Assembly: GCA_002049455.2 (NCBI GenBank)
Contig: KV919048.1
Coordinates: 38,213 to 102,212 of the forward strand
Source of the DNA: Porphyra umbilicalis
Lineage: Eukaryota; Rhodophyta; Bangiophyceae; Bangiales; Bangiaceae
DNA: 64,000 nt
Reading direction: 5' to 3'
Made by a program: the position numbers and the translations under genes
The notes under the pieces: model-generated
Databases searched by the model: none
What the model was told of the DNA's origin: nothing
The model's input: the letters and a program-made list of their open reading frames with translations, nothing else
Part shown: one piece after another, positions 14,710 to 38,947 of the stretch
Layout: every line of letters starts with the position of its first letter
Numbering within the stretch: the stretch's first letter is position 1

Positions 14710-16488
14710 TCACCACGTCTCGGTCTCCTCACCCACTGCAGCAAAGATAGAATCTGGGCTGGTCTCCTCATCCAACCACTGCACAATAACGTCGAGTGCA
14801 TCTGGGTGAGTCCCCGACACAAAATGATTCGCACTGGGAGCTTCGCCCGCTGCACTGCCGTCCGGCTCGAGACTGCGCGCCTGGCCGAGCATCGTCACAA
14901 TCTCCCGGGCATCGTCGACCCGCGGCGCCGCCGGTTCGGGCACGCCCGCCGCCACCGCCTCCAGGCGGGCCCGAATCTTGTCGTGCACGTCCACCGGAGT
15001 GCAGCTGGCCCGTAGCCAGCAACGCATGATGGACGCGGGAGTCACTGCGTCAAACGCCGCCTTGACGAATTGCATTGCGTCGAGCACATGCGGGCTCCGA
15101 CCATCCGCCACGCCCAAGGCTCCCGGCTTCGCCCGTGTCTCGCGCGCCTTGCGTGCGGCACGCTCGTCCGACGTTTCGTCAAAGTGCTTGTCAAACGTCG
15201 TGAGCATGCCGAGCATCATCTCGCGTCTGTACGTGGTCTTCGTTGCGTTAATCACGCCTTGATCACAGGGTTGAAAACGCGCCGTCGTGTTCGGCGGCAA
15301 CCAATCAATGTCGAAGCGGGCATTTTTTGCCGACGCATCGTGACCCGACGCATTGTCCATCACCAGGAAGCCCCGCTTGTTCGTGAACGTAGCCCATTCG
15401 TCGCTTAGGTCGGTCAACCACTTGGCGTAGACCGTGGAGTCCATCCACCCTTTTCGTTGGGAATAATACCGTACCGGTAGGTCGGAGTTCCCGCGGAAGC
15501 AGACCGGCTGAGCCGCCTTGCCAATGACAGCAATTGACTTGAAGGTTCCTGTCGCATTGACCGTGATGATGAGCGTGATTCGCGCCTTGGCCCGTTGTAG
15601 CTCCGTCCCGCGCGCCTCCTTGGCGTCACACTCGAGAACGTAGGAGTTGGATGGAGCGAGTTGATAAAACAATGCAGCCTCGTCCATGTTCAGTATACTC
15701 TCAGGATCCATACCAACCATCTTCTCCCGCAATACAGCCATCCTCTTCTCTCCCTCCACCAAGTCAATCCCTCCCCCCGACCCATGCAAATGCACACTCC
15801 GTATCGCGTGGCGCTTAACCCATCGGTCCACAAACCCGTTGGAAGCCGCAAAGTGCTTCCCCGGGTAGTGTCGACGAGCGAGCTCGCTCGCCTTGACTTG
15901 CAGAGCATGTCGAGAGATAGGCATCTTTTTGCGGCCCATCGATCGAATACGCATAAACCACTCAAAAAGCAGTTGGTCAACGAGCGGAAAGCGGCACACT
16001 TGGATGCAGCGGGCTCCCAGAGGCACACCGCGGGCGGCGGCCGCCCAGGAGTTGACACGCCCCTGCCACACGCCGTATATCGCCCGCTTGGTGACACCGT
16101 AGCGTGCAGCCAGCGCCTCCCGCGGCACCTTGTCAGCGCACTGCGTGATGATCAACAGCTTCTCCCCCAACAAGAGGGAGCCACGGATCTTGCGCTCCTT
16201 GCTGGATGGAAGTGTACTCGTTGATGGCGCTGCCACAACCGGCGCAGCCGGAGTCGCGGTCACCGCGAGAGGGGGGGGGGTGGTTGCTCCCGTGGCCGCG
16301 GCGTCTCGCACCGTGTTATGCACGACGCCCAGAGCGGTCGCTGCGGCAGAGTTCAGAGCCTCGATGGCTTCTGAGCTCGCGCCTACGACAGCGGAGGCAT
16401 TGGGAGCCAAAGCCGCCGCCGTGAGCAGAGACGCAATGAAAGAGAGAGGCTGGGATTGGGGGGTGGGGGCGGGAGAAGCACCCTCCAT
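14710..16488 (-). CDS. pogo/Tigger transposase (CENP-B-like)
   Basis: Cuts and joins the transposon ends. The start chosen is the ATG at 16488 (MEGASPAPTPQ), giving 592 residues; the frame stays open to 16620, but the extra part is low complexity. An N-terminal psq/CENPB-N helix-turn-helix (LLLGEKLLIITQCADKVP...YGVTKRAIYGVW) is followed by a Tc5-type helix-turn-helix ending NGFVDRWVKRHAI. The DDE/D domain shows D269 in ILNMDEAALFY, D378 in FLVMDNASGH and D409 in QPCDQGVI. Exactly 30 residues lie between the last two, the DD30D spacing known for pogo. No frameshift or stop is present. A short acidic tail after the catalytic core is family-typical. Confidence 0.93.
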   Translation of the reverse strand: MEGASPAPTPQSQPLSFIASLLTAAALAPNASAVVGASSEAIEALNSAAATALGVVHNTVRDAAATGATTPPPLAVTATPAAPVVAAPSTSTLPSSKERKIRGSLLLGEKLLIITQCADKVPREALAARYGVTKRAIYGVWQGRVNSWAAAARGVPLGARCIQVCRFPLVDQLLFEWFMRIRSMGRKKMPISRHALQVKASELARRHYPGKHFAASNGFVDRWVKRHAIRSVHLHGSGGGIDLVEGEKRMAVLREKMVGMDPESILNMDEAALFYQLAPSNSYVLECDAKEARGTELQRAKARITLIITVNATGTFKSIAVIGKAAQPVCFRGNSDLPVRYYSQRKGWMDSTVYAKWLTDLSDEWATFTNKRGFLVMDNASGHDASAKNARFDIDWLPPNTTARFQPCDQGVINATKTTYRREMMLGMLTTFDKHFDETSDERAARKARETRAKPGALGVADGRSPHVLDAMQFVKAAFDAVTPASIMRCWLRASCTPVDVHDKIRARLEAVAAGVPEPAAPRVDDAREIVTMLGQARSLEPDGSAAGEAPSANHFVSGTHPDALDVIVQWLDEETSPDSIFAAVGEETETW

Positions 16489-16847
16489 CTTACAATGGAG
16501 GGGCAAAGGAGATGTCTGGGGATGGCGGAGGAAAAGAACTGTCGGTGCGGGGAAAGACGGTCGACGGCGACCGCTGTTGGCCGCTTGGTGAGGTGACTGT
16601 GGAGGTGGCCAGCTGCGCATGTTGACGTGAGAGGAAAAGTCGGTTGTGCGTGGGGCAGTACCCCAGAAATGAGAGTCAAAAATACAATATGTCCTGCTTT
16701 CAAGTACATATGGCCCCCATAAAAGCTGATTCTATGATGCAAACGCACATGCATGGAAGGCGACAAATAAATCCAAAATAGTTTATCTATGGGGGCTACT
16801 GAGGTGGACCCTCCCCTCAGTTGTGCCGATCGGAACAACTGCGGGAC

Positions 16848-16869
16848 GGTCAAGTGAGGGGTTGCACTG
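16848..16869 (-). repeat. Right terminal inverted repeat of the pogo element
   Basis: A perfect 22-bp match to the inverted left end, followed by TA. Confidence 0.93.
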
Positions 16870-17287
16870 TACGGGACGACGCAGGTCGTCGTGCGGTGCT
16901 GCGCTGGCCGTCTTCCACTACCAAGTCCCTCCTACTGAGGCCGGCAGAGGTGTCAAGTTCCCGTTTAACTACTTGACAGTGCTTGTATACTTAACGTACG
17001 GTTGGATTTTTTCTCCTATCCAGGACGCTAATGCCGGGTCTATTCTGGCGCGTGGGGTTGCGGTGGTGCGTGCTCCGAGACACCTCGGGTGGCCACAACC
17101 CGCCTGTGCAGGTATGTGGGGTTACCGCAAGTCGATGGTGGCAGGCTCCTTGCCCTCTCCCCTCCCCAGAGGGCGCCCCGCCGCTTGGCTGCTTGACTGA
17201 CTGGCTGCTCATCCCCCACCACCCCCGGGCCTCCTCTCCCAGCTCTGTTCGCAACACCGGCTGCACCGGCATCTCCGTCAGGAGACC
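16870..17287. other. Region between the pogo element and the gag remnant
   Basis: No gene recognised. It probably includes the leader of the Copia-like element, but no LTR end, TG start or primer-binding site could be identified with confidence. Confidence 0.4.
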
Positions 17288-18855
17288 ATGGCCGACTCGG
17301 ACGCATCGTGGGGCTACGTCGCGCCGCTGGACGACGAATACCCCTCGTGGTCCATCCAGTTTCAAGCGTTCCTGGTGTTTCACGACCTGTGGGACGTCGT
17401 GCAGAACGGGGTCGACGCGGCTCCCGAGCTAGCGGCCGAGAACGCGGCGGCCGACGGCGCGGTGGCCGCCACGGCCGCAGCCGCGGCACATGCGGAGCTC
17501 GTTCGGCGGGACCGACGGGCGCACGCGGCCATCCTGCTCGGGGTCAAGCAGCGCCACCGGGGCACGGTGTCGGCGGCCAAGACGGCGCGGGCGGCGTGGC
17601 TCGCCCTCGAGGCGGTGGGGCTGAGGACGGCCCGCGCGCGGCGGCAGCGTCTGAACCGTGAGCTCGGCTTCCTCGAGCGCGGGGCGGCCGAGTCAGCCCT
17701 ATCCTATGCGCGCCGCGCAAAGGCCCTGGCAGAGGACCTGGTCGCCGTCGGCGAGCTGGAGAAGGTCGCCAACATGATGGCCATATTCCAAGCGTTGGAC
17801 GGCGTCGCGGTCGACCACGAGGGCCTCGCCGAAGCCCTCCATTTTGACTTGGATTCCTTGACGTGGGACCGCTTCCTGGCTGCCGTCGAGCGTGCAGAGA
17901 CGATGAACGAGATGCGAGCGGCTCGGCGGGGGGGGGAGGGGCTCCTCGGGAGGGGGGCAGCAGCGGCGGCCGCCGGTCGCCGCGTGGCGCTAAGAGCATT
18001 GTTAACAATGAGATGCTATCCCCATATTCAAGCCACGTTGCACAACGTGTCCCATTAAGCACCTGAAGTCCGATGTAACACCACTTTTTAGACGAAGAAG
18101 CCCTTTTTTTTGTTCGGGCCATGGAAATCGAACTACCTACTTGATTCTAGCTTCCGCTGACCAAGAATAGCTTTGCGGCTATCGCTTTTCTATTTCGAGT
18201 CGGAATAGCTTTTAGGATAGCCGAGGCTATCTCACGGGGGCCTCTGATTGGCCCATGTGATGGATCAACGACCCGTTTCACAGCAAATAGTAGCACGTGG
18301 CTGCAACGTGTGCGCCACGTCTGCAAGATTGACTGCCAGTTTCTTCTGGGCAGAGGTGGTGGGAACGTCCGCAAGAGCTGTCGTGCATGGCAATGGTCCT
18401 ACAGTGACGTCCTTCTAGGCGTGGTCGTCATCAAGTGCTGCACATTTTGACCTGTTTCTTTGTCCGTCTGCCGACGAGCGTTCTCTGCGCCTTCGTTATG
18501 GTTGATACGGCTGCTCACCACAGTTGTCATCTGCCGCTGCAGTGAATCAAGTCCTGGCAGAAAATATCGTCTTGATCGGGCCCAGACAAGGCCTGGTGTA
18601 AGGAAACCTGCGGGTACTTAGGCTCATGACAGCACAGCAGCCAACCGCTGACGTACATGTGGCTGTCTAAGGACGCGGACTTGGTTCTAGAATGGAATAG
18701 CCGATAGCGATAGCCTGAGTTGTTGGCAATGCTCTAAGGCGGTTATGTGTTGGGCGTGCAACAAGCAGGGCCACCGCCGCCGGGACTGCTGGTCGGTGCA
18801 CCCTGAGAAGCGGCGCGACGGTGGCGGGCGTGCCATGACGGAGTTGATCATGTGA
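17288..18855 (+). pseudogene. Ty1/Copia-type gag remnant, interrupted by a MITE
   Basis: The first 235 or so codons encode a gag/UBN2-like protein (SWSIQFQAFLVFHDLWDVV near the start, then RAAWLALEAVG and a long helical part). The frame is cut at 17991 by an inserted element that ends at 18734. Past it, a retroviral-type zinc knuckle with the exact C-x2-C-x4-H-x4-C spacing (CWACNKQGHRRRDC) is encoded at 18748-18789, and the frame closes at 18855. Removing the insert and one target copy keeps the register, yet the knuckle is in a different frame from the 5' part. A further indel is therefore needed, most simply in the G runs near 17925-17960. No protease, integrase or reverse transcriptase of this element follows, so it is a dead fragment. 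Confidence 0.75.
17994..18734. mobile_element. Harbinger-like MITE inside gag
   Basis: The 741-bp insert has ends GAGCATTG(TT)AACAA and, inverted, GAGCATTG(CC)AACAA, so 13 of the first 15 bases match. Both sides carry TAA (17991-17993 and 18735-18737), a 3-bp TWA-type target duplication as used by PIF/Harbinger elements. The insert is richer in A/T than its surroundings, has no coding capacity, and has subterminal AATAGC(C/T) motifs in opposed orientation. Confidence 0.75.
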
Positions 18856-19527
18856 GCGGCCGGCCGGGTGCGTGCCGACGTTGGGGGAGGGGGGTGACAA
18901 CAAGGTACCCGTGCCGCCCTCTGTCGTGACGGTGGTGAACCGAGCTGTTGGGGGCATCTCTTGGGTTAGCGGCGCGCGCTCTGGTTGAGGCCTTCGCGGG
19001 GATGGTAGATGCCATAGCACACTCCTGGACAGATGGCAGGGAGGCCCATCGGTGCAGTATTCATGTACTTGTCGTCGGCCACCATGGGTCGTCAACAGCA
19101 CACAGCTGTTCCAATACATCTGTAGGCTTTCTGTGTCTTCTTCGTTCATTTCTCGTTTCGATATTGCTGTTGCTGTGATGAAGCGGGACGGAGGGGGGGG
19201 GTGCAGTTCAACGGCGCCGAGCGTCCCGTCCTCTGTGCCGCCACTTCGTTTTTTTTCCGTCGCACGTGCGTGCCGTCGGGTTCGACACCACGGGGATCCC
19301 ACGCCCCCAGCGCGACGCGGCGCGGCTCACGGTCTACACACTGCCCCATTCGCTCCGGCGCGGGGCGACGCTTCGGAACCCAACACCTCTCCCGGAACTG
19401 GACAGAAAGCACAGCGGTCAAGGGTGTGAGCCAACGTCACAGACAGGAACGCTGGGCACCGGCTCTTCCAACCTACATCTGTACTACAATATAATAAATC
19501 ATACTCGCGGCCTCTTACACATGTGTA
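18856..19527. other. Region between the gag remnant and tRNA-Val
   Basis: No gene recognised. Overlapping open frames exist on both strands without domains. It may be decayed Copia sequence. Confidence 0.4.
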
Positions 19528-19548
19528 GCAGTCGTAGCTCAGTTGGTT

Positions 19549-19562
19549 TCGAGAGCCCAGCA
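19549..19562 (+). other. Ectopic tRNA intron 1, D-loop, 14 nt
   Basis: Excision restores GCTCAGTTGGTTAGAGC, the standard D-arm. In the precursor TTGG pairs with CCAG, leaving three-base bulges TTT and CAA. A cut after the second base of each bulge gives exactly this intron. Confidence 0.8.
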
Positions 19563-19601
19563 AGAGCGCGCGCCTCACACGCGCGAGGTCGTGGGTTCAA
19601 G

Positions 19602-19612
19602 TTCCGTGAAAG
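19602..19612 (+). other. Ectopic tRNA intron 2, T-loop, 11 nt
   Basis: In the precursor TTCA pairs with TGAA (4 bp), flanked by two three-base AGT bulges, inside the T-stem GTGGG/CCCAC. A cut after AG in both bulges removes TTCCGTGAAAG and restores the seven-base T-loop TTCAAGT. Confidence 0.88.
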
Positions 19613-19628
19613 TCCCACCGACTGTATG

Positions 19629-19633
19629 TTTTT
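19629..19633 (+). terminator. RNA polymerase III terminator
   Basis: A run of five T starts two bases after the discriminator base of tRNA-Val, as expected for a Pol III transcript end. Confidence 0.8.
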
Positions 19634-20705
19634 GTAATTCGCTTGGGAACCCGCGGGCGCGCACTGGGGGGGGAGAGCAAGGGGGGGGGGGGGGGGGGGG
19701 GTGGATATGGGCCGACCGCGACCGCCACCCGGCCACTCTCACCAGGGTTGAGGTTCGTGAGGCGTTGCCCCCGGAAATGCCAGGGGGCAGGAGAAATGGC
19801 GACCAGCTTGCGACACAGTGGGACGGGGCCTCTTCCTTAAAATTTTCTGGAGCCCGGATTGAAATAGGTGAGGGATCATCCGAACGATTTGGCCAGGTTG
19901 ATCTCAGGTTCACGTCAGGATGGGATGGGAGACATCCTCGAAAATATCCCTGGTTGAGCTTGAGACAAGCATGGGATCGTTCGAATGAGTAGTCCCTTGG
20001 AAGATTCCAAACTTGGGATGACGCGATTGCCAGGTCATTCTCCGGATGGACTTGCGGATGAAGCACGGAAGCGCTCATTTGCCGCATATTGGATGGACGA
20101 GCGAATCATCCACAGGCCTGATTGCGCGAAGGTAAGAAAACAGGCCTTGGGATGGCCGCCGAGATGGACTGCGGGATAAACGTGCGGCAGGCTGCAGGAT
20201 AAAACGCCAGATATTTTCCGGAATATTTCCGCTATAGGCCCAAGAATGAGCCTCTGTCGTGCTCTCGGAGAAATCCTGTGCGACGGTAAGTGTGCGAACA
20301 AAAGAGACAGTCTCGCCGACTGTTAAAAGGAAAGAAAATAAAGCGTACTGTCGGATACCCTCGGACACAATCCCCGAGCATGCTCACGTAGGGGCGTAAA
20401 CGTGAACATCTGAAGTGATCGTCGAAGTGTCTTCGAAGACATATAGGCACCTGAGAGCTAGGCAAGTACAAAAATATTGCAACTGGAATGTTCCTCAACA
20501 AAAGCCGGGAACAGTATCTCTTGCGTGCTGGTGGTGGCAGCACCTTACAGCGGGAGATGGCCACGGCAGAGCGGCGAGCACACCTCGCCGGCGATGTCCC
20601 AAGTCGCCTTTCCCAGTTTCGAGGTCTGCTAAGGCCAGTGCGCTTGCCTGCGCCTGCGACTGTCTCCAGGTACCTCCTCACCACTCAGTCACTCGCCAGG
20701 GCACC
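19634..20705. other. Intergenic region upstream of the Tnp2-like gene
   Basis: It holds a 21-base G run (19681-19701) and a pair of short opposed motifs, GATCATCCGAACGATT near 19875 and GATCGTTCGAATGA near 19976. No gene was recognised. It may include the 5' end of the transposon that carries the next gene, but no terminal repeat was found. Confidence 0.4.
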
Positions 20706-23582
20706 ATGCCTAGCCATAAGCGACGAAAGCGTCTACCGGCCTACTTCAACTTTAGTGATGCGCTTCTACCTCACGTCGCTCCCATAAGTTTAGAACGTGG
20801 TGCGGGAGCGGTTACTGGGCAGAGTGGTGCTGCAGTCAGTCGTTCGCGCCAGACTCTTACAGCCGAACAATACAGGACAGATCCGACGAGTGCCCCAGGC
20901 CTTCACACCCCCGTTGGCGTCCCCTTATCGGGTGGCAGCGACTCGGACTCTGAGGGCGGTGATGATTCAGACACATCGGCTTTTTCGGACGGCGTGGCTG
21001 ATTGGAGCGGAGCTGAAGACGTGGACTTTTCTTCTGACGAGGAGGAGCCCGCGGGCGGCTTCTCCTCGCGTCGCGAGTTTGTCTGCTTCGGGTATCTCTT
21101 TGGTCGCTCCCGCGTTTCTAAAAGACAGTACGACGTCATGCGTGAAGCAGAGAACGCTTTCGAGCCCGTGGAACCGTGGCCTTCACGCTTCCGCCTCCAC
21201 AAGATCCGAAAGGAGATGATGCGTTTCGCTGCACCCGTTAAAGAGGTGAGAACCTCTCGCTACGTACCTATTGGGAAAGGCAAAGAGCCCCGCAGGTTAC
21301 CAGATTGCAGCGTCTTCTACACTCCCTTTTCCGACCACATTAAAAGAGACTTCGCTGACGGTGCCACCGCATCATTTTTCCACCAGTCTGGGGACGCGCG
21401 ACTTGGAACGCTCGAGCGCCCAACGGAGTTCTTTCAAACAGTTGTCGCACGAGACCCATCACACTTTAACGCTAGGAATGGCTTCCGGCTAGGTGGCACT
21501 CTGTATACGATCGGTTGTGTGGCGACTGTCGACTGCACAGCATCGCAGCAGATCACTGCAACGCTGCAGAGCACTGGCATCGCGGAGCTTGGTCAAATCA
21601 CTATCAGCCCGGGCTCGTATGCTCCACCAGACGCGCTTCGAGTTGGTGACTTCATGGCATCTTTCACGGTGAGCGAGAACTCTGTGATTCCTCCTCATCT
21701 GCGGGAATGCTTCTCGGAGGGCGGTTTATTCACTCTCCGATTTGTGCGGGCAGGAAGTGTGTACATTGCAACTCCAGTGGAGCCTGATGGCGAAGAGCCC
21801 AGCGCGTGGTTCCTGCTGCCAGGGTCAGAGCCTCTCAAGCTGCTACAAGCGGCAGAAAAGCCGTCACTGTCTGTACCGCAAAAGGATCCGTACGCCGTGT
21901 ATGTATCGTTGTATGGTGACGAGTACGCGGTCCACAAGCGCCGACGAGGAAACGTCATGGGCCTGTACGGTGCGTACGCTTCCATTACTCTGGAGAACAG
22001 GAGGCACTCCGTGCGGCCTTTGGCATACCTTCCTCCCGGAGCAGACGCCGGCCCAGTCGTTAAGGCCATTGTTGAAGACTTGATATCTCTCGCAAAAGAA
22101 GGTGTCGTTGTGTATGACGCTGTCACCAAGAAAGATGTTCTTGTACACGTTTTTCCGTGCATGGGAGTGTTTGACTTTCCAATGGCTGCAAAGTACTCTA
22201 GCTCTATTGGAGCGAGTGGTACCGAGCACTGCACTAGCTGTGACATTGTCCAGCCAAAGACGAGGACAGAGCGACGGGATCGGGCCAAGAGCAGTGTGGA
22301 TACGTTCGACGTCAGAGACGTCCGCTTCGCTCGCATACAGGAGCGCACGTCCGCCATCATTTCGAGAGTCAAAGGAACACCGAACCTTTCTACAGCGGCT
22401 ATGAAGTGCGCCCTCCTGCTGAATGGCGTGACAGTTGGTACTGGTGACGACTTCTTGCGGTTGACGGAAGGGAGAGGGCCTGGGTCTTTTGATGTACATG
22501 AGCATGTCATCGCAGCGCCTTCCCATCTCATATACTACGGCATGGCGTCACAGCTTCTTGAGGAGGCTTATGGCGCGCTCTCAGTTGAACAGCGGGACCT
22601 CCTGGTGCGGCAGGTGCGAGCGTGTGCCGCACATGTACCCACGTACACTGTTTTGACCACTTTCGAGCCCGAGAAGATGGGGGGAACGACACTCTCAATG
22701 TCAGACTACGCCGTCCTACTTACTGTGACTCCGACAGTGCTGGAATCCATACTGAGGGGCGGCACTACAGTGCCGCACCAAGCGGCACTTCTCCGGGCAC
22801 TGTTGTCGCTACGAGGATTTGCGTCGACTCTGTTCTACCACCCTAGCATAGCCTCTGACGGAGAGCATGCCGTTAAGACAAAGCCAAATGTGCAGGATCT
22901 GCAGCGCCTAGGAGAGCAGGTGATGCAAGATATTAGATCTCTCTCAGTGTTTGGGAAAAGCTGGGAGAAGCCGACCGTTCATCGTTTCCTCGAGCTCATC
23001 TATCGGTCTCTTCCCCTCATACAGCTTGGGCCATCCATGTGCGAGCTCATATTTGAGAAGTTCCATCAGGTATCAAAGCACGCAGTTCTGCGTAGCAATG
23101 GCCACAACTCCGCGGACTACTCGATGAACTATTGGCGAGACGCAGAGCTCATCTCGCGTGCCGTGTCACAGCCCGAAAAGCACGGCCTATGCAGGTCGTG
23201 GTTCCTCAATCAAAAGGGATCGTTGATGAAGGCAGTAAGTCAGCATCGCCTGGCTGCCGGTGTGCTTGCTGCAGCAGAGCAAACAATTTTATGGAGAGCA
23301 GGCCGTCAGATTCATGGACAGGCTCCTGAGTCAATGTGGATGGATGTCCGGGCTGGGGTGGACCTCCGTTTCTGGAAGACAGCGAGGAACCAGAAGAAGA
23401 GGTTCACTGTGCGCTCGGGAAGTACAGTGTACGTGCGGCCAACAGAAGAGAACATTGGTGCTTGTGACCAACAGGGGCGCTTCCTTCACGTACGCTCCAT
23501 TGGGTCTATTGATGACAAGCTGCACTTCTGCTGTGCGGCTTGGTCCTTCAAAAACACAAACACCACAGAACCAAACGGCTAA
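20706..23582 (+). CDS. Tnp2/CACTA-like transposase-related protein
   Basis: The start is the ATG at 20706 in a CACCATGCC context, giving 958 residues without a break. A basic start (PSHKRRKRLP) is followed by a long Ser/Asp/Glu-rich stretch (about residues 75-120). A central part has FPCMGVFDFPMAAKYSSSIG followed by GTEHCTSCDI near residue 507. That matches the layout of Tnp2-type transposases, where a catalytic strand is followed by a CxxC finger. A later helix, CELIFEKFHQ near residue 783, could supply the final acidic residue. The C-terminal 150 residues are unrecognised. Codon use is less GC-rich than in the flanking host genes. No terminal inverted repeats were identified, so an intact element is not shown; a domesticated copy is an alternative. 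Confidence 0.6.
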   Translation: MPSHKRRKRLPAYFNFSDALLPHVAPISLERGAGAVTGQSGAAVSRSRQTLTAEQYRTDPTSAPGLHTPVGVPLSGGSDSDSEGGDDSDTSAFSDGVADWSGAEDVDFSSDEEEPAGGFSSRREFVCFGYLFGRSRVSKRQYDVMREAENAFEPVEPWPSRFRLHKIRKEMMRFAAPVKEVRTSRYVPIGKGKEPRRLPDCSVFYTPFSDHIKRDFADGATASFFHQSGDARLGTLERPTEFFQTVVARDPSHFNARNGFRLGGTLYTIGCVATVDCTASQQITATLQSTGIAELGQITISPGSYAPPDALRVGDFMASFTVSENSVIPPHLRECFSEGGLFTLRFVRAGSVYIATPVEPDGEEPSAWFLLPGSEPLKLLQAAEKPSLSVPQKDPYAVYVSLYGDEYAVHKRRRGNVMGLYGAYASITLENRRHSVRPLAYLPPGADAGPVVKAIVEDLISLAKEGVVVYDAVTKKDVLVHVFPCMGVFDFPMAAKYSSSIGASGTEHCTSCDIVQPKTRTERRDRAKSSVDTFDVRDVRFARIQERTSAIISRVKGTPNLSTAAMKCALLLNGVTVGTGDDFLRLTEGRGPGSFDVHEHVIAAPSHLIYYGMASQLLEEAYGALSVEQRDLLVRQVRACAAHVPTYTVLTTFEPEKMGGTTLSMSDYAVLLTVTPTVLESILRGGTTVPHQAALLRALLSLRGFASTLFYHPSIASDGEHAVKTKPNVQDLQRLGEQVMQDIRSLSVFGKSWEKPTVHRFLELIYRSLPLIQLGPSMCELIFEKFHQVSKHAVLRSNGHNSADYSMNYWRDAELISRAVSQPEKHGLCRSWFLNQKGSLMKAVSQHRLAAGVLAAAEQTILWRAGRQIHGQAPESMWMDVRAGVDLRFWKTARNQKKRFTVRSGSTVYVRPTEENIGACDQQGRFLHVRSIGSIDDKLHFCCAAWSFKNTNTTEPNG

Positions 23583-24049: not shown

Positions 24050-27000
24050 TCACTGCTCTTGCCCTGCACCTGGCAAAAGGAGCTTCAACCTCGAGAGCAG
24101 AGCATGGGCCGCCCGCCCGGATAGGCGGTACACCATCAATGGACTGTGTTGGTCCCTTTCGTCAGCGGTGGGAGTCTCCGTGAGGTTCCAATGGCCGGAC
24201 CAGTACTGGTCGGACGCGCAACGCCAACAGCAGAGGGGCGCAAGGGCTATGCTGCTTGGCTCGTACGTCTCAATGCATCGAGGGCACACAACAACGGTTA
24301 GCCAGGCTGCAGCGCCGCAGCAGAAGCACAGCGCGCCGTCTCCAGTTGTGTCCGTGTGGTTGCCATCGGGATGGTCTTCAGAGTCCGTCTGTGCGGCCCG
24401 AGACGCAACGAACTCCTTAACGGGAACTGACGCTTCCGACAGGCTCACGGCCTCCAAGCTGGATCCAAACCAGCTGTGTGACACAGGTGAGGCTCGCCAC
24501 GAAAGTACTTCCGCGACGTGCTCAGATAGGTAGGTGACCAGCACGCGCAAGTCTTTCGCAAATGCGTCAGGATCGCATGCCTTCAAGACAGCGGGGCTTC
24601 CCCACCACCACCGACCGTCCACAAGCAGCTGGCACGAGAGCACAATCAGCTTCTCAAGCGGGAACGGAACTTGACACTGGTTCCTTCGCGCCTCCGCCGC
24701 GTGGGCTATCCCAAACTCGAACCACGCCAGGCATGCGTAGTTGACAGCTGAGGCTCGGTTCACTCCTCGATTGTACCCGCCATGCAGTCCCCCTGGTCCT
24801 GTGACAACCATGTCCCCAACGCGCATTTCGTGGAAGTAGACGCGGATGCCGTTCTTGAGGAAGAGTGTTGCAGGAAAACTGATGGCTTTCTGCTCGAGGA
24901 CCTTCCAGACATTCATGCCGGCTGCCTTCAGGACGCAAGGATCCATAAAGGCCAGCAACAGCCTCTCAACTGCGTCGTGTTCACTCTCGGGAACAAACCA
25001 CCACACCTTATTGGCACCACTCTCCAGGAAGGAGACGGAGAGCAAGTTGCTGTCCTCCTTGTGCCAGTTGAAGACGGACCCAACAGTTCCCAGGTAGCAC
25101 AGATTGGTGTTGATACCCACGTAAGTCGATAAGCTGCGAGCCATGCCTCCCGTGTTGAGGACTCTAGGACTTTCGAGACGGTCACCGGCCGCTGGTGACT
25201 GCCCTTGACCTGTCCAGGCGGGGTCCCCCCGGCTCCTTCCGAGGCCGTCGAGGTCCTCTGGGGCCACATCAGTTGCGTAATACACCTCAATGGGATTGGA
25301 CGTCGATCGGGGCATCATCCATGGTACCCTCCCTTCCGAGTCGCGCACTTTCCGTCTCGTGGCACTCTGGTCGTTTATCGTCGCCAGGAAGCGTGGTGGT
25401 GTCAATTCGGAATACGCTTGCTGATGGGCTCTCGCGCTGGCGCGGGATTGCCTATTCAGCTGTCCGAATGACATCCACTTACCACCAACTTGTGGCAGGA
25501 TCTGAGCGAGATCCATGGCGGGGCACTTCGGGGCCACATGGCGGCCCATAAATTGCGAACTAACGCAAGTGGGTCGCTGAGGGTAGCTCTGCACTCCGAC
25601 CCAAACTTTTGTTCGATTCGGGATTGAACTTGGGCGGGGTTGAATGCTTGGAGAAATCCGGAACACGTGAGCACCGCAGTTTTTGATCGATGGCATATTT
25701 GTGCGAATTAAGTACGGCAGACCGTAAGTGGGAATGGAATTTACATCCGTGACAGACACTTGCATCGCTGGTGGCGCCGGGGACTTGGATCGTCCGGGAC
25801 GCTCCCGAGGCCTCTTGGAACCGCCAGTTCGGCGTCCGTCACCTGCATCACGCTCACCTCGGCCATCGCACCACTGTTGCTCGTCACCGGCCTCCTTGCC
25901 CTTGACGGACGCTTGCTCCTGTTCACACCCCTGGCGACCACCATCACCACCCCGTTGGCCGGAACTATCAACCTCCCGGTGCAGCATCCCACCAGTGGCG
26001 GTCGCCGCGGGCTGCAGACCGGTCCGATGCCCACAGTTGCTGCCTCTATGCCCACCACGAACGAACTGCGTGTCGACGACGTCGGCATTGGCGGTCGCCG
26101 CCGGCTGCCGACCGGCCCGACGCCTACCGTTGCCGCCTCCATGCGCGCCCCCACCGACGTGAACGTCCTTCAGCTTTGCATTGTCGGTCGTATTCGGCAG
26201 GAGACCGGCGTGACGCGCACCATCGCCGCCCAAGTGCACTGCCGTGCCAAGAGGCTCGTCGTTGATGTCGGCATTGTCGGTCGACGCAGGCAGGCGACCG
26301 GCTTGTCGCGCACCCTTGACGCCCAAGTTCACAGCCGCGCCACCTCGCTGGTCGTCGAGCACGGGTTTGTCGGCCGCCGCCAGCCGCGCGCATCCTTGAC
26401 GCCCACGACCACCACCTCTCTGCTCGGGGTCGCGTACGTGATGCTCTTTGTCACCATGTGAATGTGGCGCCAGAGAAGCAAGTGCCAGAGTAAAGTAGGG
26501 GTACTCTTCGCTAGTTGAGTCGGTAATCTGGCGACGGCATCGGCGCGCCCAGCTACGAGAGCGCTCGAAGTGAAGTTGTGTCTTCCGGCCAACCACCTCA
26601 GCGGTTGGCTCACAGGTTGGGCGTCCATTCCGGCGCCAGCGGCCTCGGCTACTGTTGACCATGACGGTCTTTGCGGCCTTCGCGGTTGTGGTTACCGCCG
26701 TCCCTGGAGGAGGCAAGCGTGCAATAATGCGCACTGCCTCTTCCGTATCGACACCTGAAGACTCCTCGGCCTTTTCGCAGGCGTCCTTGTGGGCGTCCCC
26801 ATGCGCCAGCACCACCGACTCGTCCGAGCGGCCTTCGCCATCGGACCTAACAGCATCACACACGTCGCCGTCGGGGAACACCTTGCCCGCCGTGACGCTG
26901 AGCTCCCCAGTGCTTTTGGATTTTGCTTCCTGGCAAACAAGATCAGGAAAGGGTCTGAATGACCGCAAGCGTTGGCGAAGGGCGGCGGCGGCTCGACCGC

Positions 27001-30000
27001 CCCGTACGTACGAGCCGTCCGTCCACGTATACCCCGTCGCGGCGCCGCTTCCGGTGGTGCTTGATGAGTTTTCGGTCCTAGTGCTCATCGTTGTGTCACT
27101 GGCAGCGTAACGGTCATAGCCGATGCTGTCGCTGTGGCTGTCTTCCTCGCTGTCGCTGGCCACGCCGCCGTCGTCGATGTTGGTGCTCGTCGAGGCGTCA
27201 ACGCTCATGCTGGTTGTCGTCGTCCCGCTGTCACTGATCTCCACCACGTAGCTATTGTCGGCATCCACCATATACGTGGCCGCTTTATCGCCCCATCTGC
27301 CACTCACAGATGCTTGATTCTGGTCATTGTCATCAGCACTGCCGCGCACGTCGTCGAAGTCATGATCTTGCCGTCGATTGTGCTCGTCCACCAGCTCTTG
27401 TGGATCTGGCACATACCACTCTCCACGACGCTGAGAGTCGACGTGCTCGTCTACATCACACGGATGACCTCCGTCATGCGGCCCTAAACGTCTCCACGAG
27501 CACGTGACTTGCATCACTACATCTGCGACAGAGGTCGCATCTTTGAATGCAGCAGCTTCGACCATGGCGTTCCCCGAGGCGCGGACGCACCTGAATCCCT
27601 TGCTGAGCACAGGCGCTCCGCGAGCGATTCGACTTGAAGAGCGTGGAGGACATGCCGGCGGGACGGGGGAGCGGCGTGGGAGAAGCATGCGGACCCGGGC
27701 AATTGACCGCGGACTCGCCGTCGAAGCGTTGATGGGGACGCGCTGTTGTACGTCCTTGGAAAGGTGTTGGCTGCCAGGCCTGCGCTGCACCGCAACGCCG
27801 TTGCGGCTGCCGCTGCATCCGCAAGAGCCGTCGATGACACCAACGGCGGAAATGTGAGCGGTCACGCCGCCACTGTACCCTGCTCGCCAACAGACGCCGG
27901 CGTCCTTGAAACCGTCAGCTGCCTGCCGCGGTTGGAGCAGAGTGTGACGGGCGGTGCGGGGGGGCACGTTGCGCGATGCCGTTGGTGAGCAATGAGGGAT
28001 GCAGGACCACTTGTCCCCAGGTAGCGAGTCGGCCGTCGATCGTAGCAGAGGGATCGCGTTCCTGGCCTCCGTGCACCAAGTCGCGCAACCGATTCCAGCA
28101 GAGCGCGGCGTGCCCTCGCGCCCTTGCCGACACCCAGCTGCTGCCTTCGCGCTGCGTCCACTTTCTGGCGACGCTCTCATCGAGGGCACGCCTTGTTTGC
28201 CGCTGCCTCTGTCTTGTGGGATGTGGCCGCCAGATGGCGGCGAGCCAGAGCCGCTGCCGCCATCACCAGCACGGTTGTTTCCGGGGTGGTCCCCACCATC
28301 CGGTCCTGGAGGTGCTGGTGGGGTACCGCCCGAGGCGCCGTCGTCGTCAGACGTAGATCGTTGTCGTAATAGTTTGTCCCCGCAGAGCAATGTTGCCGCG
28401 ACTGCGTTCTCGGCTGCATCATCCAACCGCCGTTGCGCTGCCACCAAGTCGCGGACTGCTTGTCGCGCGTCAAGTAGGGTTGCCGATAACGTCCACAGCT
28501 TGTCGGTCGAACGCAAGCGGGCCGCTTCGGTCGGATGCGCCGAAATATAAAAGGCAAGGTAGGAAATGATGTTCTCCCCCCCACGGAAGGCGCTCGTGGG
28601 GTATGGAAGACGGCGCTCCACGATGGGGAGCAGCTCGCGAAGAACGCGCTCGACCGCCAGCGTGTTCTTGCGAGCCCCCCTACCCTTCATGTGCACATAG
28701 GCAAACGTTGTTGCCAGGATGCGATAGATGCCATTGATATAGGCCTCGTCGTACGACGCTTCCTCGTCCTGCTGCGACACAATGACCACCATCTCAGCCG
28801 TGGCGGTCGACTTGGGATTCGCCACCGCCAATCCCATCGCATGCCGGATGCGCGGCAAGATGGCGTTGAGGCCGTGAATGATCACAGCCGACCATGATGA
28901 CCCTGGGATGAAGGGAAGAATGGTCGTGCCAGCAAAGAAGACGGAGTGCCGGCGCATGGCCTCGACGCCCCGGTTGGCGCTTTCAAAGTCCCTTCTCGCC
29001 GCGCGGGGCGCGTAATCTGCCACGGTCGATGCCATTACCCGCAGCCCACCGTCAGTCGGCAACGCTCCCCGTAAACGTGTCAGCAACCAATGGAAAACTC
29101 CGTCGACCAACCTCCTCGACAGACGCGCGCCATCATCTAGCGATGCAATATCCTGTCCGTCCAAAGGCAGCGCCTTGAAGTGCCCGAGTGTTCGACGAGG
29201 AAACCACAAGATGTTGGCGCCTCCGTCAGGACGAGCGGGGGAGCGCGTTCGCTGCCGGGACCGTGCTGGAGATGAGGAGCGGCTGCGTCTCGATGCCCCC
29301 CCGGCAGTGGGGTAGTCCCGTGTGCGGCGAGAAAACCGAGGTACCTGCCGGTCGGGAGATCCCAGACGCCGCGGAGAGGGCGACCGCGGCCGTCGGAGCT
29401 CAGAGGGCGACCGCGGCCGTCGGAGCTCAGAGGGCGACCGCGGCCGTCGGAGCTCAATCCGCCACGCTTGGGGACGGGCAGGACCTTTGCCTTTGCCGAA
29501 GAAATTGGACTCCGAAGGTTGGGGGGGGGGGGGTGACTCGGCACGATGCAGCGGCGGCCCGTGCTTAGCGGGACCACATGCTGACGAGGCAAAATCGTCG
29601 CGTGGAGGGGAGCCGATAGTGACAGGCGCCGTCGCCACCTGCGAGTCGTCGTGGCCCCGGCATCCGTGGGCCTTGAGCCCCGTGACCACAAATTTTCCCG
29701 CCCTCTTGACAGCGTCCACGTCGCCTCCGGCAAGGCTGCTTACAGCAGCGGCAAGGACGCCGTCCAATAGTGACGAGCTGCCGCATGAGCGTCGGCAAGC
29801 CAGAAGCCTGTCACGGACATCAGCAGGGGGAGATGGCACGTGGACAGAAAACTCAAGAGCCGCTAGCACCATTTCAACCTGCGCCGGTGACGGTCCATGC
29901 GCCGTCGTTGCCATGCGTGTGGCATAAAGCGCCGCGGCAAGCACGGCCGCTGGAGAGAGGGGCACGGGGGAAGAGGCTACCACGCGGGATACTGGCCCTC

Positions 30001-30049
30001 CACCAGGCGCGTTCGCGCCGCCGCGACCAGACCCGCGCTTGCGCCCCAT
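24050..30049 (-). CDS. Very large JmjC-domain protein, copy 1
   Basis: The frame from the ATG at 30049 is open for 1999 codons. The N-terminal 250 residues are basic and Ser/Arg/Pro-rich, with a 9-residue repeat (ELRRPRSPS) three times. A globular region at about 285-460 (DGQDIASLDDG to YVHMKGRGARKN) vaguely recalls a Ulp1/C48 fold without its catalytic Cys. A long charged, low-complexity middle follows. Near the C-terminus is a clear JmjC oxygenase core: LCYLGTVGSVFNWHKED, FLESGANKVWWFVPESEHDA and GPGGLHGGYNRGVN. Fe(II) ligands would be H1663, E1665 and H1756. A Cys-rich finger follows (LCFCCGAAAW...CPRC...CCWRC...H), similar to the C5HC2 finger of KDM5/JARID proteins. The likely role is a nuclear 2-oxoglutarate-dependent demethylase or related oxygenase. 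Introns inside the low-complexity middle cannot be excluded. Confidence 0.75.
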   Translation of the reverse strand: MGRKRGSGRGGANAPGGGPVSRVVASSPVPLSPAAVLAAALYATRMATTAHGPSPAQVEMVLAALEFSVHVPSPPADVRDRLLACRRSCGSSSLLDGVLAAAVSSLAGGDVDAVKRAGKFVVTGLKAHGCRGHDDSQVATAPVTIGSPPRDDFASSACGPAKHGPPLHRAESPPPPQPSESNFFGKGKGPARPQAWRIELRRPRSPSELRRPRSPSELRRPRSPSPRRLGSPDRQVPRFSRRTRDYPTAGGASRRSRSSSPARSRQRTRSPARPDGGANILWFPRRTLGHFKALPLDGQDIASLDDGARLSRRLVDGVFHWLLTRLRGALPTDGGLRVMASTVADYAPRAARRDFESANRGVEAMRRHSVFFAGTTILPFIPGSSWSAVIIHGLNAILPRIRHAMGLAVANPKSTATAEMVVIVSQQDEEASYDEAYINGIYRILATTFAYVHMKGRGARKNTLAVERVLRELLPIVERRLPYPTSAFRGGENIISYLAFYISAHPTEAARLRSTDKLWTLSATLLDARQAVRDLVAAQRRLDDAAENAVAATLLCGDKLLRQRSTSDDDGASGGTPPAPPGPDGGDHPGNNRAGDGGSGSGSPPSGGHIPQDRGSGKQGVPSMRASPESGRSAKAAAGCRQGREGTPRSAGIGCATWCTEARNAIPLLRSTADSLPGDKWSCIPHCSPTASRNVPPRTARHTLLQPRQAADGFKDAGVCWRAGYSGGVTAHISAVGVIDGSCGCSGSRNGVAVQRRPGSQHLSKDVQQRVPINASTASPRSIARVRMLLPRRSPVPPACPPRSSSRIARGAPVLSKGFRCVRASGNAMVEAAAFKDATSVADVVMQVTCSWRRLGPHDGGHPCDVDEHVDSQRRGEWYVPDPQELVDEHNRRQDHDFDDVRGSADDNDQNQASVSGRWGDKAATYMVDADNSYVVEISDSGTTTTSMSVDASTSTNIDDGGVASDSEEDSHSDSIGYDRYAASDTTMSTRTENSSSTTGSGAATGYTWTDGSYVRGGRAAAALRQRLRSFRPFPDLVCQEAKSKSTGELSVTAGKVFPDGDVCDAVRSDGEGRSDESVVLAHGDAHKDACEKAEESSGVDTEEAVRIIARLPPPGTAVTTTAKAAKTVMVNSSRGRWRRNGRPTCEPTAEVVGRKTQLHFERSRSWARRCRRQITDSTSEEYPYFTLALASLAPHSHGDKEHHVRDPEQRGGGRGRQGCARLAAADKPVLDDQRGGAAVNLGVKGARQAGRLPASTDNADINDEPLGTAVHLGGDGARHAGLLPNTTDNAKLKDVHVGGGAHGGGNGRRRAGRQPAATANADVVDTQFVRGGHRGSNCGHRTGLQPAATATGGMLHREVDSSGQRGGDGGRQGCEQEQASVKGKEAGDEQQWCDGRGERDAGDGRRTGGSKRPRERPGRSKSPAPPAMQVSVTDVNSIPTYGLPYLIRTNMPSIKNCGAHVFRISPSIQPRPSSIPNRTKVWVGVQSYPQRPTCVSSQFMGRHVAPKCPAMDLAQILPQVGGKWMSFGQLNRQSRASARAHQQAYSELTPPRFLATINDQSATRRKVRDSEGRVPWMMPRSTSNPIEVYYATDVAPEDLDGLGRSRGDPAWTGQGQSPAAGDRLESPRVLNTGGMARSLSTYVGINTNLCYLGTVGSVFNWHKEDSNLLSVSFLESGANKVWWFVPESEHDAVERLLLAFMDPCVLKAAGMNVWKVLEQKAISFPATLFLKNGIRVYFHEMRVGDMVVTGPGGLHGGYNRGVNRASAVNYACLAWFEFGIAHAAEARRNQCQVPFPLEKLIVLSCQLLVDGRWWWGSPAVLKACDPDAFAKDLRVLVTYLSEHVAEVLSWRASPVSHSWFGSSLEAVSLSEASVPVKEFVASRAAQTDSEDHPDGNHTDTTGDGALCFCCGAAAWLTVVVCPRCIETYEPSSIALAPLCCWRCASDQYWSGHWNLTETPTADERDQHSPLMVYRLSGRAAHALLSRLKLLLPGAGQEQ
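29375..29455. repeat. 27-bp tandem repeat, three units, in the JmjC gene
   Basis: Three identical 27-bp units (29375-29401, 29402-29428, 29429-29455) encode ELRRPRSPS three times. The paralogue on 36.6-38.9 kb has a single such block, so the expansion is specific to copy 1. Confidence 0.9.
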
Positions 30050-30756
30050 CGCTCTGAAGGGAGCGCAATGACACGGGCGTCGCCCGTGAGAGCTGACCAC
30101 TGCGTTCTAATCCAGCCGACGGAGTGTTCAGGGACCCTTCAGATAAAGGGCGCTTGGGCGCCACAAACGGCGTCCCCCACCCTGGCCGCCTAATCGGGGT
30201 GGCTCTCTGCGTCTCTCAGTCGCGTGGAGCGCGTGCCCTGACCACTGCAAATAAAGGAGAGAGGCCACGTGCAAGTGACCGGCAGCGTGCAAAACGCGGA
30301 TACGCCACTCGTCGCCCCGGCTCCAGCGGCGCTGCCAAGAATGGGCCCCAATTTTCGTGCCCCAGTACCTGTAGCACTCGCGCGGCGGGCTGCTGCGAAG
30401 TCGAGCCAGTAAGGACGTGGGGCGCGCTGGCCGCGTGCAATGACCGCGCCGGCGGCTGGTAGTTCCACAGCCAGCCGCGCTCCAAATAAAAGTCCTCCGA
30501 TTGAAGTGGCCCCCCGCGTGGCGCAGCCGGGATGGCGGACCGACCAGGACCGCCGTGCTACCGACCAGGCCGCTTCCTGTGGCAGGTCTGCTGGGTGCAA
30601 CACGGGTGGACAGCGCCAGCGACACAATATGCCGTTGCCCCGCTGAATGCTCACCGAGGGGATCCAGCAACGTCGTTCCGCCCCCCAAAGCGCACGAGAA
30701 GGAGCTACCCCCGCTGCAGTACCACACGAGGAGCCACGGTCGCGAAACCCGGTGCA
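30050..30756. other. Upstream region of JmjC copy 1
   Basis: Colinear and clearly similar to 38948-39600 upstream of copy 2, sharing for example TCCTCCGATT, GGCCCCCCGCG and GGCCGACCAGG blocks in the same order. It should hold the minus-strand promoter. No independent gene recognised. Confidence 0.6.
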
Positions 30757-37900: not shown

Positions 37901-38947
37901 GTCAAAGTCGCCTCTGGCTGCGCGGGGCGCCTCGTCTGCGACAGTGGAGCATAGCAACCTCAGCCCCCCGTCTGTCGGAAGCACTCCCCGCAAGCGAGTC
38001 AACAGCCAATGGCAAACACCGTCCACTAGCGCCCTCGACAGGTGCGAGCCGTCATCCAACGACGCTAGGTCTTGCTCATGGAGGGGCAGCGACTTGAAGG
38101 GACCGAACGTCACACGAGGGAACCATACAATGTTTCCGCCGCCGTCCATGCGAGCCGGAGAACGGGTTCGCTGCCGGCACCGGTCTGGGGAAGTCGAGCG
38201 ACTGCGTCCTAATGCCCCCCCTGCCGTCGGGTAGCAGCGAGAGCGCCACGTGAAAGAAGGAGCAGGTCTGTTGGAAGACGCCAGCCGGCGCGGCGCAGGT
38301 GACCGTGGCCGCCGAAGGTCGTTCCGCCCCGGTTGGTGCTGAGCAGGCCCTTTGCCCTTGCCCACGACAGACGGCGCCGAAGGGTGGGGTAGGCGACGTG
38401 ACTCGGCAGCTTGACGAGGTCGGTTGTGCTCACCGTGCACCTCTGTAGCCATAGGCACGTCCACACTAGGAGATGTGGGGGGCAGTAGCTGTGCCCGTGG
38501 TGAGGGCGCAGCGAGCGCGTCTGGTGCCGTGGTCGCGGTCGTGTCGTCGTGGCCGCGACAGCCATGGGCCTTCAGACCGGTGACAACAAACTTGCCCGCC
38601 CTCTTTACAGCGTCAATGTCGCCTCCAGCAAGACTACTGACAGCGGCTGAAAGGACGCCGTCCAATAAAGCAGAGCTACCGCAAGAGCGTCGGCACGCCA
38701 GCAAACGGTGACGGACATCAGCCGGGGGAGGTGTGACGTGAACTGCAAACTCCAGGGCGGCCAGCACCATTTCCACCTGCGCTAGCGTGGGGCCGTGAGC
38801 CGTGGGTACCGTGCGCGTCGCATGAAGAGCGCCTGCAAATACCTCCGCAGGGGACAGGGGCACGGGTGATGAGGCCATCACGCGTGGTCCTGCGCCTCCA
38901 ACAGGCGCGTTAGCGCCACCACGGCCGGATCCGCGCTTGCGACCCAT
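34958..38947 (-). pseudogene. JmjC-gene paralogue, copy 2, truncated before the JmjC domain
   Basis: The frame from the ATG at 38947 matches copy 1 from residue 1 (MGRKRGSGRGGANAP) through the same N-terminal globular region and the charged middle, up to PPAMQVPVTDV. Similarity stops at about 35018, where the preceding repeat unit begins, so the JmjC core and finger are absent. One in-frame TAG (36610-36608) interrupts the frame between the two halves, and reading continues in the same frame after it. Copy 2 therefore cannot make the oxygenase. The N-terminal half alone (about 780 residues) could still be produced. Alternatively a small intron hides the stop. Differences from copy 1 are many, so the duplication is not recent. 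Confidence 0.75.

Follow-up and report, generated by a model that had tools for sequence, protein, structure and literature searches.

A valine tRNA gene with two probable ectopic introns and related interrupted tRNA genes in the seaweed Porphyra umbilicalis

We analysed a stretch of 64,000 nucleotides from the red alga Porphyra umbilicalis (contig KV919048.1, forward strand, positions 38,213 to 102,212; hereafter the window, meaning the whole stretch) and found that its segment 19528..19626 is best read, with support from sequence comparisons within the genome, as a nuclear tRNA-Val(CAC) gene carrying two ectopic introns, one in the D-loop and one in the T-loop, and none at position 37/38. 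Judged from its sequence, this is very probably a working gene, the two introns of which would be spliced by tRNA endonuclease via relaxed bulge-helix-bulge (BHB) motifs. At least 21 nuclear tRNA genes of the same genome, belonging to 11 isoacceptor groups, carry introns at D-loop position 20/21 or T-loop position 59/60.

Results

Two inserts in a tRNA-Val(CAC) gene

An original prediction, made by a model from the letters of the window, had described inserts of 14 nt and 11 nt in this segment, and the sequence is as it described. ARAGORN reported no tRNA in the uncut gene or elsewhere in the window and, after removal of both inserts, a tRNA-Val(CAC) of 74 nt, which bears out the predicted identity and length; the description of the product as perfectly canonical was overstated, pair 1:72 being G-U. 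The anticodon loop is an unbroken 7 nt, as had been claimed, and on that ground a canonical 37/38 intron was rejected for this gene; the expected discriminator A and RNA polymerase III (Pol III) T-run are likewise present (Table 1). The Rfam tRNA family scored the uncut gene at 27.6 bits against a cut-off of 29, skipping the D insert and ending in the T arm. A covariance model (R1) was built from 15 other nuclear tRNAs of the same genome, with the window copy excluded and 98.4% of cells paired in the alignment; it scored the gene at 74.8 bits (E 8.6e-18) as its sole match in the window, three of the 15 tRNAs being Val(CAC) paralogues, so that this score is not an independent test. The core of a group I or group II ribozyme comprises hundreds of bases; a self-splicing intron of either group was rejected, given the insert lengths and the fact that no Rfam family reached its cut-off anywhere in the window.

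The genome searched comprises 83.8 Mb in 665 contigs, among which C665 is the plastid and C288 carries the window gene. A DnaK encoded on C665 has 100% identity, over 96% of the query, to chloroplast Hsp70 of P. umbilicalis; a Porphyra cluster entry (DNAK_PORUM) reaches 98%, two further hits 99% and 98%, and species of Bangia and Pyropia no more than 96%. BLAST with the window gene retrieved four more Val(CAC) genes of full length, along with three degenerate copies. Once exons are joined, the window gene agrees with the genes on C349 and C47 at all 74 letters, and those on C34 and C236 show two differences each; the existence of these paralogues excludes the window gene as a chance sequence. 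In all five full-length genes the D-loop is interrupted at one and the same point, by inserts of 14 (window), 15, 16, 17 and 22 nt with differing letters, and among these genes the window copy alone has a T-loop insert. Compared in pairs, the five D introns are about as alike as shuffled introns, some pairs being more so (C288/C349, 11 of 16 versus 7.1). The flanks of the five genes, about 1.1-1.5 kb per side, gave one 34-base match between two copies and nothing else at E 1e-3. A second, intact Val(CAC) gene formed part of the counter-example named in the original prediction, and a genome search with the exon-joined sequence returned no intronless copy.

Genes with and without an insert at the same site exist as paralogue pairs, and therefore the intron joints are fixed, within equivalent placements, without invoking structure. 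Two Asn(GTT) genes are reciprocal, the one on C432 having a D intron and the one on C365 a T intron, with exon-joined sequences identical in 74 of 74 letters; no third Asn(GTT) gene came from a genome search with the exon-joined query. Gln(CTG) has D and T introns on C64, as in the window gene, and a D intron only on C80, where the T site is empty. Thr(CGT) is represented by three genes with a T intron and one (C14) without, and Glu(CTC) by two genes with a D intron and three without; the same D arm occurs uninterrupted in five Val(AAC) genes (Table 1). At the T site of the window gene three placements are equivalent, as a shift by one base either way leads to the same tRNA, and 59/60 was picked by rule.

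Table 1. Features of the candidate tRNA-Val(CAC) gene and its surroundings (window coordinates)
Feature	Position	Strand	Detail or basis
tRNA-Val(CAC) gene with two ectopic introns (best reading)	19528..19626	+	99 nt; 74 nt once introns are removed
Exon 1, positions 1-20a, includes A box 19535-19546	19528..19548	+	alignment of related genes
D-loop intron, 14 nt, between 20a and 21	19549..19562	+	Val(AAC) genes L027, L029-L032: same D arm without insert
Exon 2, positions 21-59	19563..19601	+	anticodon CAC at 19576-19578
T-loop intron, 11 nt, between 59 and 60	19602..19612	+	empty site in four Val(CAC) paralogues
Exon 3, positions 60-73	19613..19626	+	discriminator A at 19626
Five-T run, probable Pol III terminator	19629..19633	+	
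TATA-like stretch TATAATAAAT, -38 to -29, possible Pol III promoter element	19490..19499	+	role inferred from C. merolae

Ectopic introns across the genome

The interrupted genes comprise five Val(CAC), two Asn(GTT), one Arg(TCG), two Gln(CTG), one Ala(CGC), two Glu(CTC), three Thr(CGT), one Cys(GCA), one Lys(TTT), one Val(TAC) and two Glu(TTC). Together with a Thr(TGT) gene that has a 37/38 intron only, they make up a set of 22 genes, in which the D-loop is interrupted 12 times (by introns of 10-33 nt), the T-loop 11 times (11-30 nt) and site 37/38 six times; 7 of the 22 have two introns each. ARAGORN named the right tRNA after intron removal in all 22 genes (21 with ectopic introns). On the uncut loci, where it was used with no intron option, it gave nothing for 17, a wrong or unnamed tRNA for 3 and the right isotype with the intron unrecognised for 2 (Cys and Glu C448a). 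The claim of two ectopic introns in the absence of a 37/38 intron gained from these results, since there are more such genes in the genome and the pairing described below lies far above controls. The window gene had also been called notable; it is less singular than supposed, such introns being widespread in the genome, where Gln(CTG) on C64 has both, and published for Cyanidioschyzon merolae and a cryptophyte nucleomorph.

The set is not a census, and no percentage of intron-bearing genes is derivable from it. In the Rfam tRNA search 63 of 1261 candidates were scored, yielding 56 matches, 25 of them on the plastid contig; the other 31 were read as 14 intronless, 9 interrupted and 8 neither. 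These last RF00005 matches (L044, L045, L048, L049, L050, L052, L053, L054) have a truncated, organelle-like or repeated look and were left out of the counts. Five of them (L044, L048, L050, L052, L053) belong to one recurrent tRNA-like element, perhaps organelle-derived or a repeat, whose copies on several contigs resemble one another in the letters of the anticodon region and T arm. Further loci were sought with short patterns and then scored by the covariance model. One pattern hit 58 places, against 8 for its backward control, mostly in a dispersed repeat; 12 places were read anew and 11 were known tRNAs. Another hit 27 places (21 read anew, 5 known), and its backward control, with 61, exceeded the pattern, so that only the model scores count.

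Two families of repeats were met in this survey. L090, L091, L093-L096, L098, L099 and probably more loci belong to a dispersed repeat that is flanked by CAGTCACACCGGTCAT or a close variant and has an A-box-like stretch GTGGCGTAGTTGGTT; the copy L096 also has a B-box-like stretch, and the repeat is possibly a tRNA-derived short interspersed nuclear element (SINE). L100, L103, L104, L112 and L114 form a second tRNA-like family with a similar upstream stretch, degenerate stems and scores of 23-32 bits with the tRNA model.

Pairing at the splice sites

A BHB is made up of two 3-nt bulges separated by a 4-bp helix, according to the outline in PMC3978253. In the window gene the D intron letters 19557-19560 (CCAG) are able to pair with exon letters 19543-19546 (TTGG), and the T intron letters 19607-19610 (TGAA) with exon letters 19596-19599 (TTCA). 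Over the whole set, pairing between the exon and the 3' part of the intron in the predicted register amounted to 40 of 48 pairs at the D site (83%, 12 introns) and 38 of 44 at the T site (86%, 11 introns). Shuffled introns gave mean counts of 24.1 (D) and 18.3 (T), none of 20000 shuffles reaching the observed count at either site, and in six shifted registers pairing fell to 35-52% at D and 32-52% at T. All four pairs are formed in 6 of the 12 D and 5 of the 11 T introns, both window introns included. The original prediction had placed both cut sites in two three-base bulges separated by a 4-bp helix: the helix stood at both sites, and the bulges did not keep their strict form. In the predicted fold the window motif is a relaxed BHB: the T intron would be cut at its 5' end within a hairpin loop of 7 nt and not in a bulge, and the D motif has an internal loop on its outer side.

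The T-loop intron of a tRNA-Cys gene (L046:370-459, on C409) resembles a tandem duplicate of the gene's own T arm (GGTTCAAACACCC, then GGTTCAACACCC), which hints that such introns can arise by local duplication.

Splicing machinery and transcription

The search for tRNA endonuclease subunits that had been proposed along with the prediction turned up a Sen34-like gene on C104 (66.6 bits), a Sen2-like gene on C7 (37 bits) and a Sen54-like gene on C25 (49.3 bits), the best PDB matches of which are Sen34, Sen2 and Sen54, respectively. A gene for the ligase RtcB is located on C294. For Sen15, Pfam PF09631 gave no match at E<=1 in the genome, in a search of uncertain sensitivity whose controls included no eukaryote and gave a weak signal in one archaeon.

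The T intron of the window gene splits the B box after eight of its eleven letters (19594-19601, then 19613-19615). Upstream of the 21 genes with ectopic introns, A+T content in 10-base steps from -50 to 0 is 60, 75, 64, 44 and 54% (20 genes in the first step), and a strict TATA motif precedes 6 of the 21. A TATA-like upstream sequence has been proposed as a stand-in for the internal boxes in Cyanidioschyzon merolae, as presented in PMC3978253; for Porphyra the A+T figures, taken from ectopic-intron genes alone, are suggestive only of an upstream TATA-like promoter element. Downstream, a run of at least four T starts within 29 nt of the ARAGORN gene end in 19 of the 21 genes and within 10 nt in 16.

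Genomic surroundings

Transposon pieces lie around the tRNA gene at window positions 14713-18055 and 20415-23579 (Tc5-like DDE transposase, copia-type gag), together with a weak Transposase_21 match below its cut-off; a long open frame with a JmjC domain follows at 24053-30100 on the minus strand. The three degenerate Val(CAC)-like copies (L006, L007, L008, on C4) are similar to one another, share flanks and have an insert resembling that of the C34 gene. CCA letters near the gene end make a copied CCA possible in them, and they were excluded from every intron count.

Discussion

Our analysis points to a working nuclear tRNA-Val(CAC) gene from which two ectopic introns would have to be removed, and several observations weigh against this reading. 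In Val(CAC) on C236 one of the two differences creates a U-U mismatch at pair 1:72, and Val(CAC) on C34, as also Gln(CTG) on C80, lacks a T-run in the first 40 nt past the gene end. An intact Val(CAC) copy elsewhere in the genome is possible, as the searches were non-exhaustive and the assembly may be incomplete. The restriction of ectopic introns to two sites is partly a search effect, since the patterns miss introns outside 20/21, 37/38 and 59/60, and model R1, the source genes of which have inserts at these positions, favours them. Wherever several placements fit, a rule based on the mature tRNA decided the intron boundaries, and the introns of paralogues are related, so that the pairing counts are not fully independent. 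The D introns of Arg(TCG) on C249 and Ala(CGC) on C395 form only two of four pairs; for the former the boundary was chosen to leave what we take to be the usual GGATA D-loop, and an alternative boundary gives none of four. Finally, the predicted fold at the window T site lacks the inner helix that a strict BHB would have.

The window copy might instead be a dead tRNA pseudogene with random short insertions in two loops, as its being alone among five Val(CAC) copies in having a T insert, and the transposon pieces on both sides of it, would fit. We regard this as very unlikely: the D insert is common to all five full copies found and the searches returned no intact copy, the stems are intact and the exon letters equal those of two paralogues, and across 11 isoacceptor groups inserts turn up at the two sites again and pair with the exon in splicing register. 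Hardly any weight attaches to the idea that the window gene is part of a tRNA-derived repeat, or SINE; dispersed tRNA-like repeats do occur in the genome, and the degenerate copies on C4 share flanks around an insert-bearing Val(CAC)-like sequence, whereas the five full copies share almost no flank, have a T-run within 10 nt in four of five cases and keep complete acceptor stems save one pair in C236. Both of these candidates were rejected on the intact stems, the exons identical to those of two paralogues and the unshared flanks. It is just as improbable that the inserts are kept in the mature tRNA as enlarged D and T loops. The case for removal made here is one drawn from gene sequences, which leaves this idea some room, whereas paralogues with and without an insert share their exon sequence and insert lengths vary from 10 to 33 nt; moreover, an 18-nt T-loop should upset the contact between D-loop and T-loop.

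A more serious alternative contradicts only part of our explanation, namely that genuine introns are removed by a conventional endonuclease of four subunits, the search having missed its Sen15, and that the enzyme is in no way special. We consider this distinctly possible and on balance doubt it. The weakness of the PF09631 controls speaks for it, as does the statement in PMC4090602 that a eukaryotic endonuclease can cut archaeal-type BHB substrates; the Sen2, Sen34 and Sen54 domains, however, were found by the same method, and Sen15 was not found in C. merolae either, as far as the accounts in two reviews extend (PMC3978253, PMC4090602). According to the same accounts, C. merolae has Sen2, Sen34 and Sen54, and the lack of Sen15 may go with its freedom of splice sites.

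For the preferred reading, a working gene with two spliced ectopic introns, we consider the following course very probable. Pol III would transcribe the precursor, and the 3' part of each intron would pair with the end of the preceding exon (in the D arm UUGG with CCAG, in the T arm UUCA with UGAA) to yield a relaxed BHB. Cleavage of a BHB takes place after the second base of the bulge, and here it would be carried out by a tRNA endonuclease consisting of the Sen2/Sen34 catalytic pair and Sen54, perhaps without Sen15, after which a ligase, probably RtcB, would join the exons. The splice sites would be picked by local structure and not by a ruler; the relaxed site choice that the original prediction expected of the endonuclease is likewise inferred.

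All GUG decoders found, that is five Val(CAC) genes and one Val(TAC) gene, carry an ectopic intron, and so do both Asn(GTT) genes found; hence there would be no translation without ectopic splicing, unless copies were missed by the assembly or the searches. The alga probably must excise these inserts to make working tRNAs. Nor is the gene type marginal, since in the results of a default tRNAscan-SE run on P. umbilicalis, as given in PMC10496412, Val(CAC) is the major valine tRNA gene. One reading that would join these points is that loss of Sen15 and a structure-reading three-subunit endonuclease date to the red-algal ancestor and let introns enter 20/21 and 59/60 repeatedly, that GUG and Asn decoding in Porphyra have become splicing-dependent, and that transcription driven by TATA elements rather than internal boxes makes a split B box tolerable. 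We put it forward tentatively, as a conjecture falling only a little short of an even chance.

In the literature consulted, the combination of ectopic introns and no Sen15 found has, for a full nuclear genome, so far been that of one small-genome extremophile red alga, where it is attributable to extreme reduction. The same combination in an 84-Mb seaweed genome points to an old red-algal trait, and a link between endonuclease subunits and intron placement becomes testable across red algae. Furthermore, tRNA finders can miss or misname such genes, of which the silence of ARAGORN at most of the uncut loci is a warning, and the paralogues with and without introns in one genome are natural pairs for studies of tRNA intron gain and loss. 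Our literature search found no report of ectopic tRNA introns in Porphyra; most subscription journals lay outside it, and a prior mention is possible.

Comparison with known systems

The statement in the original prediction that ectopic introns occur in some red algae agrees with published accounts for C. merolae and for a cryptophyte nucleomorph. In C. merolae, as described in PMC9602550, introns are located in the D, anticodon and T arms, and more than 62% of nuclear tRNA genes have introns, at least 12 of them several; there are up to three introns per gene, of 11-69 bp and with relaxed BHB motifs (PMC3978253, PMC9602550, PMC4090602). Its permuted genes have junctions at 20/21, 37/38, 50/51 and 59/60, and the introns listed in them lie at 14/15, 37/38 and 55/56 (PMC3978253). 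Porphyra resembles C. merolae, as far as these accounts go, in having D- and T-arm introns, relaxed BHB motifs, genes for Sen2, Sen34 and Sen54 (with no match for Sen15, here in a search of uncertain sensitivity), a TATA-like stretch upstream and a T-run downstream, and its sites 20/21 and 59/60 are among the permuted-gene junctions of that alga, the C. merolae intron sites available for comparison being those listed for permuted genes only. No swapped halves were seen in Porphyra with exon-joined queries for Val(CAC), Asn and Val(TAC), in searches not aimed at permuted genes. Unlike C. merolae, with 16.5 Mb, Porphyra has 84 Mb and several paralogous genes for a tRNA, of which only part carry an intron.

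The nucleomorph of Guillardia theta is of red-algal descent. According to PMC4090602, non-canonical introns of 3-24 nt are present in the D and T arms of its tRNA genes, 9 genes in all and some with several introns, and their excision was confirmed by sequencing of RT-PCR products. Introns in the same two arms are thus common to both; in Guillardia they belong to a relict algal nucleus and their excision is confirmed, whereas those of Porphyra, predicted from gene sequences, measure 10-33 nt and occur in a full nuclear genome rather than a tiny relict one. Thermoproteales archaea, as characterised in PMC4033280, are similar in having multiple non-canonical BHB introns at various sites, cut by structure, although they belong to another domain with another enzyme form and are likened here by description only. 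With canonical eukaryotic 37/38 introns, six of which occur in the 22 Porphyra genes, the ectopic introns share the endonuclease family; the window gene differs in having no such intron and in carrying its inserts in the D and T loops. Among eukaryotes, the table of a 2014 review, in the portion consulted, gives multiple-intron tRNAs for C. merolae only (PMC4033280). The kind of intron described here is therefore already known from C. merolae, and what appears to be new is its occurrence in a seaweed, beyond an extremophile.
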